Shown: positions 25,574 to 32,919 of the stretch, one piece after another
Position numbering within the stretch: the stretch's first letter is position 1
How the letters are laid out: every line of letters begins with the position of its first letter
Assembly: GCA_933822405.4 (NCBI GenBank)
Contig: CAKOGP040001714.1
Span: 310,001 to 374,000 of the forward strand
Source: Cylindrotheca closterium
Lineage: Eukaryota > Bacillariophyta > Bacillariophyceae > Bacillariales > Bacillariaceae
Direction of reading: 5' to 3'
DNA: 64,000 nt
Notes under the pieces: model-generated
Told to the model about the DNA's origin: nothing
Seen by the model: the letters and a program-made list of their open reading frames with translations, nothing else
The model's database searches: none
Program-made: the position numbers and the translations under genes

Positions 25574-26137
25574 ATGAAGAGTCAAATAATATTCGCAGCG
25601 CTCCTTGCTGCCGCGGCTGTCGCAACTGAAGCGACGAATGACGAAAACACCGCTAAAGTCGAGGACACTCACAAGGTTCAACGGGAGCTAAGACCCGTTC
25701 GAATTTATGACAATCCTACGACAGAAGGATCCTGGGGCCACTGTGAAGGAGATTGTGACGTTGATGATGATTGCTACCATAATCTAATTTGCTTTCAGCG
25801 CCAAGAAAATGAAGCAACTCCTGTTCCAGGATGCAAGGGTGGGGACGAAGACTTTTCGGCAAACGACTATTGTGTATTCCCTGGTGACATTCCATTGTCT
25901 GGCAATCTGTTCGAGCAGCACACTGGGGATAACCTCAACGATGAGCCAGTAGATGATCTATCGCAGCCCACTGGTCAAACAACGATTTTGTCGGCGGAAA
26001 ACCCTGAAAATGAGACGGCAACTGATCCTCCGCTCAGTTTAGTGGGGCAGAGTGGTGTGTCATCACTGAGCCAGCAGTTCATATCGATGACTTTGATGTC
26101 TCTGGTTTCGGCGGCCGTCTTGACCATCCAAGCTTAG
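25574..26137 (+). CDS. Secreted, probably GPI-anchored cysteine-motif protein, 187 aa
   Basis: Residues 1-18 form a signal peptide (MKSQIIFAALLAAAAVATEA). A compact cysteine module follows at about 53-100: GHCEGDCDVDDDCYHNLICF, then PGCKGGDED and NDYCVFP. This six-to-seven-Cys pattern (C-x3-C-x5-C-x4-C...) recurs in many predicted secreted proteins of marine stramenopiles. The remainder is Asn/Thr/Ser/Pro-rich, and the last 25 residues are hydrophobic (ISMTLMSLVSAAVLTIQA), consistent with a GPI-attachment signal. Probable cell-surface or wall-associated protein; function unknown. Confidence 0.75.
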   Translation: MKSQIIFAALLAAAAVATEATNDENTAKVEDTHKVQRELRPVRIYDNPTTEGSWGHCEGDCDVDDDCYHNLICFQRQENEATPVPGCKGGDEDFSANDYCVFPGDIPLSGNLFEQHTGDNLNDEPVDDLSQPTGQTTILSAENPENETATDPPLSLVGQSGVSSLSQQFISMTLMSLVSAAVLTIQA

Positions 26138-26921: not shown

Positions 26922-29900
26922 ATGAGGATTGGGGAACTCTCGATATGGACTCTATTTCTGGTATTATGCTTCCTTTGCGGCATACATGTGGTCGATTCAG
27001 ACAATGATATATTCAGACAGCAGCAAGTTTCAAATACGGGAGAAGAAAGCATGTTTTATTATTCCATTGATGGGTCCAACAACAATCGTAATAATCCTTC
27101 CTGGGGACAGAAGGAAACACCAAGGGTCCGGTACCTACCGCAGGCGTCTCGATACTATGATGAGACAGCACCCAACACTGGAGGTGGTATTCCAGTGGAT
27201 GAAACCAACTCCAATTTACCTTCGGCACGCCGCATTATGGAAGCCATCTTCTCGCAATCCACACCTCATGCTGACAAGGGGACGAATCATCTAATGTTGG
27301 AATTTGGGCACTTTATTGTGCAAGATGTCATTGGGCGTACGCTCTTGAATGAGACAGAACCCTTCCCCATGCCATGCGATGGTGAAGTAACAGATGTTGT
27401 CTTTTGTCCTGTGACTGGGCAGACTTACTCCATTCCGTTCGATCGGTCACAACATGCTACTTTTGCCAATAGAAATATTCCACGAGCATCTCTCAATGGT
27501 GAAACGGCCTTTATGGATATGAGCAACTTATACGGCAACACTCCCGAGGTACAAGAAGAGGTGCGAGAATTCGTAGGAGGACGCGTCAAGCTGGATGAAA
27601 TGGGATTGCCGCCGATTCTCAACAAGTACAATTCCTCCCCTGGAGTCTTTGCAATGTACTGTGTATTTCTACGGTATCACAACATTTTGGCAGCGGAATT
27701 CCAGGAAAAAAATCCTACTCTCAAGGAGGAAGAACTATTTCAAATGGCACGTCAAAAGAATATTGCCATCTATCAATTCAATGCTGAGGAAAAGTACATA
27801 CCCACGCTACTTGGATCCAAGCTGGAGCCTTATGTTGGCTACAACTCAAGCGTGGATCCAAGCATAGATGAATTCTTTGCGGCTGCCTCCTTTCGGTACG
27901 CTCACAGTAGTTTCTCTGGACTGGTTCGTTTGTTGGATGAGAATTTTGATCCCACTGGTTCGGATCCATTGATTTTGCGAGATGTCTTTCGACAGTCCTC
28001 ACCCAACAATGTCCCACGGGTGGTACGGAACCATGGAGGAATCGAGCCCTTTTTGCGAGGGCTTACAGTCACCAACGCCAAGGCTGTTGATGCCAGTCTT
28101 GTTCATGATATGAACTACTTTACCGAAGCTACCAGTTTGCTGGACGTCCAACGCGGACGTGATATGGGATTACCGTCGTACAATGATGCCCGAGAAGCCT
28201 TTGGCTTGGAAAGAGTTAAAGATTTTGAAAGTTTGGTCGGGTACGACTACCAAGGGATACTTGCTCCTCTGAAGGAGCTGTATAATGATGATATCGAAAA
28301 ACTCGACGCCTATGTAGGTGCTCTATTGGAAGCCAAGGATACTGGAGCCGAAATGGGACCCCTCTTTAGCCAATCCATTTTGAATCAGTTCCAGCGCATC
28401 CGTGATGGGGACCGACTGTGGTACCGCAATAATCAATACACTCAAGAGGAATGGGAACAATTTCCGTCCATGGCGGATTTGATTCGGGCAACTTGCACGG
28501 GGATGGACAATTTGCCTACTGAAAGTTTCTTAGCTTGGGATGGTGTGGCCGGCGAAGGCGCGGCAACTTGTGGAGCATCCGCGACGCAATTGTCGCTCAT
28601 CAAGTACGTTGATTCTTTGTTTTGGTCTGTTATTTCGGTTATCATGGACTGTCTATCTCATTTGGTCCTCTTCTCCTTTTATCCAGTGGAAAGTACAGTC
28701 TGGGGTGGCAGATCGACGTTCCATCAGCTGCAGATCTTCGGGACCAGCCAGATATGAAAAGCACCATTGAAGTTACAATGAATTTCAACGAGCGCATGAA
28801 TAATCCAGGGTTCCTGGGCGTCGGATGGCGCAGTCAACAAATGAGAGGAGCTGAAATTTGGTGGTGCACTGCCAACGCTGACATCTTTGCCACAGAAACA
28901 TTTCCTGACGCCTGTGATGCGAATAGTGATAAGGTGAACTTCGAAAAGAAACTATTTTCTTGCTGTGTGGCAGATGGAGGACTGCATGTTCAACCGGTAT
29001 GCTCCAGTCCTGATGCTTCCGTGTACTACGAGTTGACAATTGTTGACTGGTGTCTGACACCAGGAACGTCAAGAGTCACTGTCACAGCGCCAGTTTGTGA
29101 TGATAATGAACAGTTTACCAACGGAAAAGTAAACTGTTTCCGTAAGACATCTAGTGCCAATGGGGAAATGGATTTCATTGTCGCCTACAACCCCAACAGG
29201 ATTGGTAACCATGGGTATCAGATGCGTACCGCCGCGGCCGTGGATCTTTCTGTGGGTGTTTTAACACAATCCGAATCTGACACTGCAGACGTTGGACTGA
29301 TTGCTACTCATGCGATATTCATGCTTTTTGGATGGATGGTGTTGGCACCGATGGCCATTTTCGTGAGTTCGAATAGTGATATTATGTGACGATGACGGAC
29401 GGTCCATTATCCCTCCACTTACTCACTCGTTGTGTATACATTTCAGATTGTTCGATACATGAAAACAAAAGAGTGGCGCTTAGTGGCTCATGTTTCGTTA
29501 ATGGGTATTGTTGGTAGTATGATGGTCCCCTTGCTCATTGGAGTCGAGGCGTCGGTTGGGGCAACTGACAAGACAGAAGAACACAGTTTTGTCGGTTTGA
29601 GTCTTCTCGGAGTTTACTTTGTCATGGTATTTGCTGGAAGGGTCCGATATCTCAAGCTACAAGGTAAAAAAGTTGGCCGCAAGACTTACTTCTTCTCAGC
29701 AATTTTGCACAAATATGGTGGTGTTGTGATGGTGCTCTTGGCATGGTAGGTTTGCTGTTAGCAATACGTATCTCATCTCCTAGAACGGAACAACTACTCA
29801 CCGCAACTCTATCCCGATCCCGCAGGTGGAACTGTTACACTGGCCTCGTTAGAATTGGTCCTGAAGATTCCTATTTCCAAGTTCTTTTATTAAGGTAAGT

Positions 29901-32900
29901 ATAAATGTATAGCTCGTTTCATGTATCAGTAAAACTGGAAATCTCACACATCGTCTTTTGCAGTACATATAGTATGGGCTACGACCTTGATATTTTTGGC
30001 TCCATCCGGAAGTATATCTACTTTCCATACCTTGCTGTGGTCTGTCTCGCTTTTATTTTTGCGGAAGCACAGCGCTATCGACTGAACAGTTCTTCTCACG
30101 TATCAAAGTTGCAAGGTATTCTCGAAGGAAAAAACACAATATGGGAAGATGACGCCGACAAGTTCCTGGAAAAGATGACGATGGATGCCTTCATGGAGGC
30201 GACGAAGCTCGGGACTATGCTCTGCATTGTCGACGGGTATGTTCTCGACATAACATCCTTTGTTGAAAGTCACCCTGGCGGCCAACACTTACTACGTTAT
30301 GCTGCCGGTTCTGATATCACGGAAGAATTTGTTGGCAAGAGAGATGTCGATGGATTGCGAAATGTTCATAGTCATAGCGCAGTCGAATTGATGAAGACTT
30401 TTGTCAAAGCCGTCCTCGTTGACGAGAACAACCAGAAGCTATCGTTCCAGAAGGGAGCAAGTTCAAGAATGGCTCTGTCAAAATCTAAGAACGGAAAGGG
30501 CTTCGGACGAATGTCTTTGATGGAAACAATCGCACGTGTCCCGCAAACTCGTCGGGGCGCGTCGGTCTTCCGACGAGGAAGAGTGGTCGGACTGAGGTAT
30601 CTGACTCCCGAGATCGAAATCACGCACACTTCGAAGCCTGCAATCCTTCTGCAGTTGGCACTACCAAAAACGAGAAAAGATCTCCATGTGCAAAAGTTGA
30701 TCTCCCTTCCAAGTTGTGCATTCACTTTCCGTGGAATTGACAAGTATAATTCTGCTGTCGATCGACAGTATACTCCAGTGAAAATCCACAACGACTTTGC
30801 TAGCAGAACCAAGGATGATACTGACGAAGATATATTTGACTTTGTGATCAGTTTGGTACCTGGTGGCAAGATGACGAAAATTTTCCTCGATCTGAGAGTT
30901 GGCAAAGTACTTCTGGCCAAGGGGCCCACTGTGAATCAAGAAACGGTTGCAACATTTCGGACTGGAGAATGGAGATCGGTCGTAATGGTCGCAGCTGGAA
31001 CCGGAGTTTCTCCCATGCTTCAGGTCATAGATTATTACATCGGGAAATTGAGCTCAGAGTTCAAGGGGCTGGAATCAGTATTGGATGCTGAAGTTCCCAA
31101 TCTATATTTGATGTGGATTGTCAAGAGCCCAAAGTACAATTACGCCGAGACGCTTGCACTCGACTCGAGGGTGGCCCGGTCGAACGGCAAATTCAAGTAC
31201 ACGGTGATATATTCCACATCACATGGAAAGGAGTCGATAGAAAAACCTCGTCATCAGCTGCACCACCAGTGGACCTTCAAGGAGGTCGTCGACAAGACGA
31301 CACCCAGAAGAATTGGTTTGCCGGGCTTCAAGAAACCACAGAAAGTGAAGCGCGCTGTGGTTGACGCTGCATGGAAGTCAAAGAAGAACCTCTCAAAAAA
31401 AACTGATCTTTCTTCTCTTGCTGCACCTACCAACAAAACTATTCGGTCAAGCGAGTCGTCTTCCGATGAATTCAGTATCGAAAATGAAATTACAACGGCA
31501 ACGTGGAGAGACGACAAGGTGCAAACGTGCTATCGGTCATACAATAGGATGCTTCTTGAGGAGTTGCTCCTCTCCATCCCTGAAACGGATGGATCCTTCC
31601 GGACATCATCGAACCCAACGATGGGCCGGATTTCTCTGCCGTCGATAATTGAAGAGGGGTCGGAAGAAGATGAGAGTAGCGATGACGATCATAGCAGTTC
31701 ATACGATCAAGACGACAGGAACTCAGTCGACAGAGACAGTTCGTATGGATCGTACAGTTCGTACGATGAAGGCAGCAGGAGTTCGAAAGGCGACAGCAGC
31801 TCGTTCAAAGATTCATTCAAGGACGAAGGCTCCATTTCGCAAGAGAGCCGTTCAGAGTCTTCCTCGTCGTCGTCGTCTGGTCTCAGATCTGGTTTGAAAT
31901 TTATTCCTTCGTTAAGCTCGGACAAAGGCTCGCATGGAACCCATGAAAGCGCGAAGAGCCCTGATAATTGTTCGTTGGACGAGAAAGAAGAATCAAGCTC
32001 GCATGGTACCCGTGAAACCCCGAAGAACCCTGATAACGGTTCGTTGGACGAGAAAGAAGAATCAGGAACAGTTGCCACTGAGAGAAGTGGAAGCAGTCCC
32101 GAAAGCAACCAACAGGCAGATTTAGAATCGAACCTTTTGACTTCCTGGGTTCCGTCAAGACCCCTGGATCGATCATCTTGGATGCCTCCTACCGGTCTTG
32201 ATGCAGCCAAGAATGCTTCGTACGACAGCGACTATGTATCTTTTGATCATAATCAGCTGAAGAGAGGATTCTCGACAGCCAATAGTGGATCAGCAATACT
32301 CCGAAGTCCTACTTCGAAAACAAACCAAAGAAATCTCATTCCACCACGACTTGGTGGTCCTCCACTTGAACATGAGCCTTTTCACAAAGTACCGCCAAGA
32401 CTCGGAAGTCCTCCACCGGAAAAAGAGCCCTCGCGTTCCATACCGCCGTTAGTTCCTAAGAGCATTGCAGCGCCTTCGACAGAGCAGTCATCATCACAAC
32501 CGAAAGCTTCCGAGCCGCCTCCGAAAAGTAGCGCAGTACCATTCGCAAGAAATATTCCAGTCGTACAAAATAAGCCTCCTAAAAGAAACCAACCGGCGAG
32601 GGTGCCTTCTCTTGAGAATACGCCGCAGAGTCCAAAGAAGGATGCTGTAGACGAAGACCACAAAGAGAGATCATCCCTTGAAGAGAGAACACCAAGCAAG
32701 AATCTAGAGACTGCACATTCTGACAGTCGACGAGAAACCCGAGAGGAAGAGTTGCTAGATCAGTGGGAGATCGACGAAGAAGAGTACAGAGATCGAAAGA
32801 TCTTGGTGGCTATATCAGGAGCGCCCATGTTTGAATACAAGACCAGAATGAATCTTGGTGATTTGGGATTTCCACAAGAGAATATCGTCACCTTTCATGC

Positions 32901-32919
32901 TTCCGGACAACAGCTATAG
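26922..32919 (+). CDS. Haem peroxidase-DOMON-cytochrome b561-cytochrome b5-FNR fusion, about 1893 aa
   Basis: Five inferred exons: 26922-28603, 28687-29362, 29447-29745, 29826-29894, 29964-32919. Domains in order: signal peptide (1-26). Animal-type haem peroxidase about 60-555, with FRYAHSS proximal His328, FMDMSNLYGN and RGRDMGLPSYN. The usual distal GQxxDHD reads GHFIVQD, so Gln134 replaces the distal His. DOMON about 560-750 (SLGWQID, FLGVGW). Cytochrome b561 about 755-930, with histidines in THAIFMLFGW, AHVSLM, EHSFVGL and LHKYGG. Cytochrome b5 about 985-1045 (HPGG His1012, second ligand in VHSHSA). Ferredoxin-reductase module with RQYTPV (FAD), GKMTKIF..GP, AAGTGVSPM (NAD(P)) and a final ISGAPMFEY after a 450-residue Ser/Pro/Glu-rich insertion. 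Proposed role: electrons pass from cytosolic NAD(P)H through FAD, b5 and b561 to the outer face. Reaction product unknown. Confidence 0.85.
31927..32070 (+). repeat. Intragenic 69-bp tandem duplication
   Basis: Two adjacent units within the disordered insertion of the peroxidase-FNR gene. Each encodes SHGT-E--K-PDN-SLDEKEES. Both preserve the frame. Confidence 0.75.

Follow-up and report, generated by a model that had tools for sequence, protein, structure and literature searches.

A single gene of the diatom Cylindrotheca closterium encodes, on one 1893-aa polypeptide, an animal-type heme peroxidase fold, a DOMON domain, a cytochrome b561-like membrane core, a cytochrome b5, and a ferredoxin-reductase-type FAD/NAD(P) module (peroxidase-DOMON-b561-b5-FNR). 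The gene lies at 26922-32919 of the window, by which we mean the whole 64,000-nucleotide stretch analyzed, and its product is referred to below as the window protein. A Pfam search of the 47.6-Mb genome places An_peroxidase matches at four loci, and at all four of them DOMON-b561-b5-FNR sequences lie downstream; with every An_peroxidase locus found in the genome showing the architecture, and other species as well, it exceeds chance. We consider the polypeptide to be, probably, an outward-facing trans-membrane NAD(P)H oxidoreductase that in diatoms carries a pseudo-peroxidase cap. Its modules are known and its type of task is known, and we rate the architecture itself as one not found described: among the matches listed from the open-access literature, no title or abstract opening describes such a fusion.

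Domain organization of the window protein

The initial annotation had proposed this domain order, and Pfam, hhalign, hydropathy, and four histidines in the membrane core bear it out. The features of the protein are as follows, with the evidence for each in parentheses.

26937..26993, + strand: N-terminal hydrophobic segment, aa 6-24, a probable signal sequence (hydropathy only)
27057..28520, + strand: animal-type heme peroxidase fold, aa 46-533 (An_peroxidase, PF03098, E 1.9e-92)
27321..27323, + strand: position of the distal heme His, here Gln134 (peroxidase alignments)
27903..27905, + strand: proximal heme ligand His328, kept (peroxidase alignments)
28687..29248, + strand: DOMON, aa ~561-748, predicted ligands Met613 and His736 (hhalign probability 96.7; ligands in 23/23 rows)
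29309..30087, + strand: b561-like core, five predicted helices, His769/801/832/874, a span that includes introns 2-4 (hydropathy, ligand columns, Pfam 21.5 bits, below the cut-off of 23)
30190..30423, + strand: cytochrome b5, aa 985-1062, His1012 and His1044 (Pfam, profile comparison, ligand columns)
30550..30942, + strand: FAD-binding module, aa 1105-1235, with RQYTPV and GGKMTK (Pfam, profile comparison)
30970..31272, + strand: NAD(P)-binding module, first part, with AAGTGVSPM (Pfam, profile comparison)
31273..32787, + strand: insert of ~505 aa, rich in Ser/Glu/Pro/Asp, splitting the NAD(P) module (composition)
32788..32916, + strand: NAD(P) module, last part, with SGAPMF, CGSP in the other three copies (profile comparison)

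In the Pfam searches that the initial annotation had suggested, An_peroxidase, Cyt-b5 (E 1.8e-10, aa 990-1056), and FAD_binding_6 (22.3 bits against a cut-off of 21.1) pass, and Cytochrom_B561 (21.5 bits; cut-off 23) and NAD_binding_6 (20.5 bits; cut-off 22.2) fall just short. DOMON is absent from the Pfam match list of the window protein, and its assignment comes from one-to-one hhalign comparison with relatives whose own Pfam DOMON match passes the cut-off (probability 96.7, E 3.6e-10); an HMM built from eight non-diatom DOMONs scores the window protein at only 7.8 bits. Of the 21 proteins scanned, including 17 expected to contain the membrane part, not one reached the Cytochrom_B561 cut-off (best scores: window protein 21.5, P0136 21.0, P0013 18.1), and the b561 assignment accordingly depends on the four His and the five helices. 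The corresponding five hydropathy peaks span aa 770-944, and an extra weak peak at 991-1009 falls in the b5 domain. None of the four fusion loci is among the matches of the genome-wide DOMON and b561 searches.

Loop charges follow the positive-inside pattern and predict an N-out/C-in orientation, in agreement with the earlier proposal of an outer ectodomain and an inner reductase; the signal peptide proposed with it is likewise matched, by hydropathy only, by the hydrophobic N terminus. For the plastid membrane, named in the initial annotation as an alternative site to the surface, the window protein shows a hydrophobic N terminus and no positive sign. The paralog C403 carries AQAF after its hydrophobic stretch, which we take to resemble a diatom plastid cleavage motif. 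An Arg of the FAD motif is Ala in the other three genome copies, and a Cys of the NAD motif is Ser in the window copy, so that flavin and nucleotide use could differ. The full-length structure predicted for one relative places its domains with low confidence against one another (pTM 0.48). P0004 has a DEP domain (aa 1592-1659) within the insert that interrupts its NAD(P) module, and one is precomputed for P0006 too, hinting at a regulatory role for the insert.

Heme ligands and the peroxidase pocket

Of the 23 rows of an alignment that omits P0021, P0067, and P0097, which end before b561, and does not include P0003, P0006, or P0134, 22 retain all nine heme ligands: the proximal His of the peroxidase part, Met and His of DOMON, the four His of the b561 core, and the His pair of b5. 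The sole exception, P0136, lacks b5 and is therefore gapped at one b5 column.

The pocket of the peroxidase part tells a more divided story. Where the initial annotation had seen an animal-type heme-peroxidase domain, the fold and the proximal His stand, but the distal catalytic residues are lost in the diatom clade. The window protein retains none of the distal Gln, His, and Arg: the distal motif GQxxDHD reads GHFIVQD, with only the G and the last (Ca) Asp left, and the RxxE motif reads KYNS or, by another alignment, has a gap at Arg and Ser at Glu. Across the diatom clade the distal His is present in 1 of 12 sequences (P0005), the catalytic Arg in at most 1 of 12, and the proximal His in all 12. 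The other fused or DOMON-bearing members that cover the sites have the distal His in 6 of 8 (P0014 and P0015 being one species, and P0016-P0020 and P0135 not reaching this site), the Arg in 13 of 13, and the proximal His in 13 of 14, with Asn in P0021. Outside the diatom clade the distal His is lost in P0021 and in P0136, where it is Val, and the distal Gln, His, and Arg are all retained in P0007, P0013, P0014, P0015, P0067, and P0097. Among the 105 relatives without DOMON that were listed, the distal His is found in 102 and the catalytic Arg in 104. Ordinary peroxide chemistry thus appears unlikely in the diatom members, whose distal pocket side is degenerate.

The Asp that in the peroxidase-cyclooxygenase superfamily ties the heme by an ester has given way to another residue in every one of the 20 fused or DOMON-bearing rows covering the position; the apparent Asp of P0135 is a misplacement, as this fragment starts later. 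Next to the proximal His, the partner residue, usually Asn, is Asp in all but P0067, P0135, and P0136, which is no private mark, since 18 of the 105 other relatives have Asp too. Between the paralogs C262 and C24, dN is 0.232 in the peroxidase part, 0.239 in DOMON, 0.299 in the reductase, 0.194 in b561, and 0.154 in b5 (paralog dS exceeds 2 where computable, in 9 of 30 comparisons). The similar values for peroxidase, DOMON, and reductase suggest that the peroxidase-like domain is constrained in the paralogs and not decaying.

A proposed electron path and its alternatives

Heme loading and pairing, electron direction, acceptor, and location we infer from the parts of the protein. In the plant CYBDOM protein HYP1, electrons from cytosolic ascorbate pass through two b561 hemes and a DOMON heme to acceptors in the apoplast (PMC10784544). 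The window protein shares with the CYBDOM proteins (plant HYP1/CRR, animal SDR2/FRRS1, insect CG8399) the DOMON Met/His pair, the four-His b561, and a probable N-terminal targeting sequence. As reported for CG8399, where the four b561 His lie in TM1-TM4 (PMC10691727), its four heme His fall in TM1-TM4 of five predicted helices. In contrast to CYBDOM proteins, it adds a peroxidase part outside and a b5-reductase inside, and the HYP1 ascorbate residues are absent at the same offsets. These residues, Arg307 and Asn311 (H4-7 and H4-3), come from a docking model (PMC10784544); compared by offset and not by structure, Arg is found at H4-7 in 1 of 23 rows (P0013) and Asn at H4-3 in none. With these residues not kept and a b5-reductase built into the protein, NAD(P)H probably serves as donor, fitting a putative switch of donor from ascorbate to the fused b5-reductase.

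Along the proposed path, cytosolic NAD(P)H would reduce the FAD, whose electrons would be handed to the cytochrome b5 of the same polypeptide and from there to the inner b561 heme (His801/His874), the outer b561 heme (His769/His832), and finally the external DOMON heme (Met613/His736). The extracellular final acceptor could be O2, yielding superoxide or H2O2, or ferric or cupric ions. The diatom peroxidase-like cap would probably play a docking, regulatory, or alternative O2-reducing role, and its proximal His could still hold a heme open to O2. Those relatives whose pocket is intact may use the chain to feed a working peroxidase or to quench it.

It is possible, if on balance unlikely, that the protein is instead a cell-surface metalloreductase, its DOMON-b561 part reducing Fe(III) or Cu(II) so that the cell can take them up, with the peroxidase part serving only as a binding or protective cap. 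HYP1 is reported to mediate ferric and cupric reduction (PMC10784544), and DOMON-b561 proteins are described as candidate ferric reductases (PMC10691727). Such a role leaves unexplained why the peroxidase fold is kept, with a dN similar to that of its neighbors, in all four copies, and the genome has nine Ferric_reduct matches besides. We judge improbable an outward NAD(P)H:peroxide reductase, in which a peroxidase heme fed by the DOMON heme would destroy external H2O2: the pockets of the six relatives with a full set of distal residues look competent for this reaction, but the changed distal positions of the window protein and the near-complete loss of the distal His in the diatom clade speak against it.

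Gene structure

The initial annotation had taken the five exons as one gene, and they indeed form a single 1893-aa frame, with the same exons and introns recovered from relatives and the same order at all four genome loci.

26922..32919, + strand: whole gene, five exons, 1893 aa plus stop, single open frame (GT-AG introns)
26922..28603, + strand: exon 1, hydrophobic N terminus and peroxidase-like ectodomain (spliced model; An_peroxidase E 1.9e-92)
28604..28686, + strand: intron 1, phase 2, at the peroxidase/DOMON boundary (same alignment column and phase in 4/4 paralogs)
28687..29362, + strand: exon 2, DOMON and first membrane helix (spliced model)
29447..29745, + strand: exon 3 (spliced model)
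29826..29894, + strand: exon 4 (spliced model)
29964..32919, + strand: exon 5, last helix, b5, reductase, and stop (spliced model)

The four introns measure 83, 84, 80, and 69 bp, and every one is GT-AG. Spliced alignment of the relative P0001 (1899 aa, 86% identity to the window protein, longest contig 6057 bases, whole query region covered) reproduced all five exons; that P0001 is the product of a transcript is only a guess. P0002, P0005, and P0131 reproduced all four introns, with further gaps falling in the variable insert; P0002 also left one stray 5' piece. The spliced models of the other three paralogs contain zero internal stops, and that of C403 is identical to the C. closterium protein P0132 in NCBI ("unnamed protein product").

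That a peroxidase gene and a neighboring DOMON-b561 reductase gene were wrongly joined is a reading we reject as highly improbable. An intron does fall exactly on the joint between the two parts, and P0003 (contig of 3761 bases) and P0134 of C. fusiformis start at the DOMON part and lack the peroxidase part, although both may be partial entries. Against a wrong joint, it occupies the same column and phase in all four paralogs, our spliced model of C403 agrees with that of NCBI, and the identical domain order recurs in Cafeteria and others. The MMETSP entries P0005 and P0131, marked "type:complete," span the joint and carry the whole order through the reductase, which argues against a joining error; a third entry so marked, P0129, has the domain order with a short C terminus.

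Just upstream, at 25574-26134 (+ strand) of the window, lies a small protein with a hydrophobic start and a sub-threshold Pfam match only, and 489 bases read N at about 24.0-24.5 kb.

Distribution and phylogeny

The peroxidase-DOMON-b561-b5-FNR order defines a family, neither one odd gene nor one confined to diatoms; where the initial annotation had described one gene, the order is shared by the four genome loci, Seminavis, Cafeteria, P0013, and metagenomic proteins. A first search outside the genome gave nine proteins, P0001-P0009, comprising P0001, P0002 of Seminavis robusta (labeled "Dual oxidase 1" in NCBI), P0004, the MMETSP entry P0005, the partial P0003 and P0006, the distant P0007, and two further An_peroxidase proteins, P0008 (Devosia) and P0009. 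A search with the paralog C24 gave ten, including P0129 and P0131 from MMETSP and P0134 of C. fusiformis. A profile search gave 189 matches, of which the best 120 were examined. The same order is present in P0014 and P0015, both of Cafeteria roenbergensis (the reductase of P0015 is incomplete), in the eukprot entry P0013, which from the style of its name we take to be the glaucophyte Cyanophora paradoxa, and in P0016-P0020, several of which are cut N-terminally; our Pfam scan of distant members covered P0013-P0017 and P0019. Seminavis and Cafeteria supply the other stramenopiles in which the initial annotation had suggested looking for the order.

A peroxidase followed by DOMON occurs in P0067 (from the chytrid Nowakowskiella, partial), P0021, and P0097. 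In P0136 (Prymnesium parvum), a peroxidase-DOMON-b561 protein whose DOMON scores 31.3 bits, just below the cut-off of 32.7, a TIR domain (aa 910-995) replaces b5 and reductase. P0010 has two An_peroxidase matches and a type-9 secretion tail, and P0011 and P0012 have the same Pfam domains.

In a 36-row tree of the peroxidase part, 23 fused or DOMON-bearing proteins stand apart (94/84) from 12 relatives without DOMON, which were hand-chosen from the 105 listed and of which 8 are bacterial by name. The 12 diatom-type sequences cluster together as a single clade (100/100), and the stem leading to them is long, at 1.53 changes per column. Long branches of one fly protein and of P0136 make the rooting provisional. 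Among the proteins retrieved, the nearest relatives without DOMON are bacterial where named. The window protein has its fold and proximal His in common with the peroxidase-cyclooxygenase superfamily and bacterial peroxidases, whereas the precomputed Pfam domains of the 105 relatives include no membrane electron chain.

Comparison with dual oxidases and significance

Judged by its sequence the window protein is not a dual oxidase (DUOX), yet on paper it would work like one. The analogy drawn in the initial annotation, of a DUOX made from different parts, holds: like animal DUOX1/2 the protein has an N-terminal peroxidase-like ectodomain, but a b561-like core with DOMON stands where DUOX has its NOX core, and b5 where DUOX has EF hands. 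True membership of the NOX/DUOX family can be dismissed almost outright in spite of the NCBI label on P0002, as neither Ferric_reduct (PF01794) nor any EF-hand family matches the window protein up to E 1 (HMMER filters drop most matches above 0.1), none of the genome's nine Ferric_reduct matches lies at this locus, and the peroxidase part scores 161 bits against the cyanobacterial peroxidase 8s6c and 128 bits against DUOX1 (6wxr). With no NOX core and no EF hand, that label misleads about the family. Animal DUOX offers a parallel to the diatom cap in its own degenerate peroxidase domain, which, however, is said to be without the proximal His (PMC4420034) that the window protein keeps. Fusions of DOMON to a membrane reductase also occur in stramenopiles as FRE-DOMON proteins, but these have a ferric-reductase core, and the account of them in PMC3591440 that we draw on mentions neither peroxidase nor b561.

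A bolder reading, which we offer tentatively and with more doubt than conviction, is that the family represents a second, independent eukaryotic "dual oxidase": an ancient peroxidase-DOMON-b561-b5-FNR protein of diatoms, bicosoecids, and (if P0013 is Cyanophora) glaucophytes, related to proteins of haptophytes and chytrids. It would export electrons as surface reactive oxygen, and its diatom peroxidase site would have decayed with the fold kept, parallel to animal DUOX. The family may also be a second instance, after DUOX, in which a peroxidase joined to trans-membrane electron transport lost catalytic residues and kept its fold, so that what the peroxidase domain does in DUOX can be studied by comparison. 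For extracellular superoxide of phytoplankton, NOX homologs are suspected, and glutathione reductase has been proposed for Thalassiosira oceanica (PMC9519596). The fusion family adds a specific, knock-out-ready candidate, one that surveys for ferric-reductase or NOX domains would miss. A Seminavis "heme peroxidase," Sro1252_g256250, is reported to be strongly induced by sex pheromone (PMC8027222).

Elsewhere the genome holds nine Ferric_reduct, 13 DOMON (10 above the cut-off), and five b561 matches, so the fusion is an additional system. A fifth locus beside the four fusion loci, L020 (G000:C278, about 311265-312007), is a broken DOMON-b561 copy, C262-like by eye and without an An_peroxidase match. 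On the minus strand of G000:C536, at about 7-18 kb, clustered DOMON matches and one b561 match perhaps represent a tandem array of ordinary DOMON-b561 genes.
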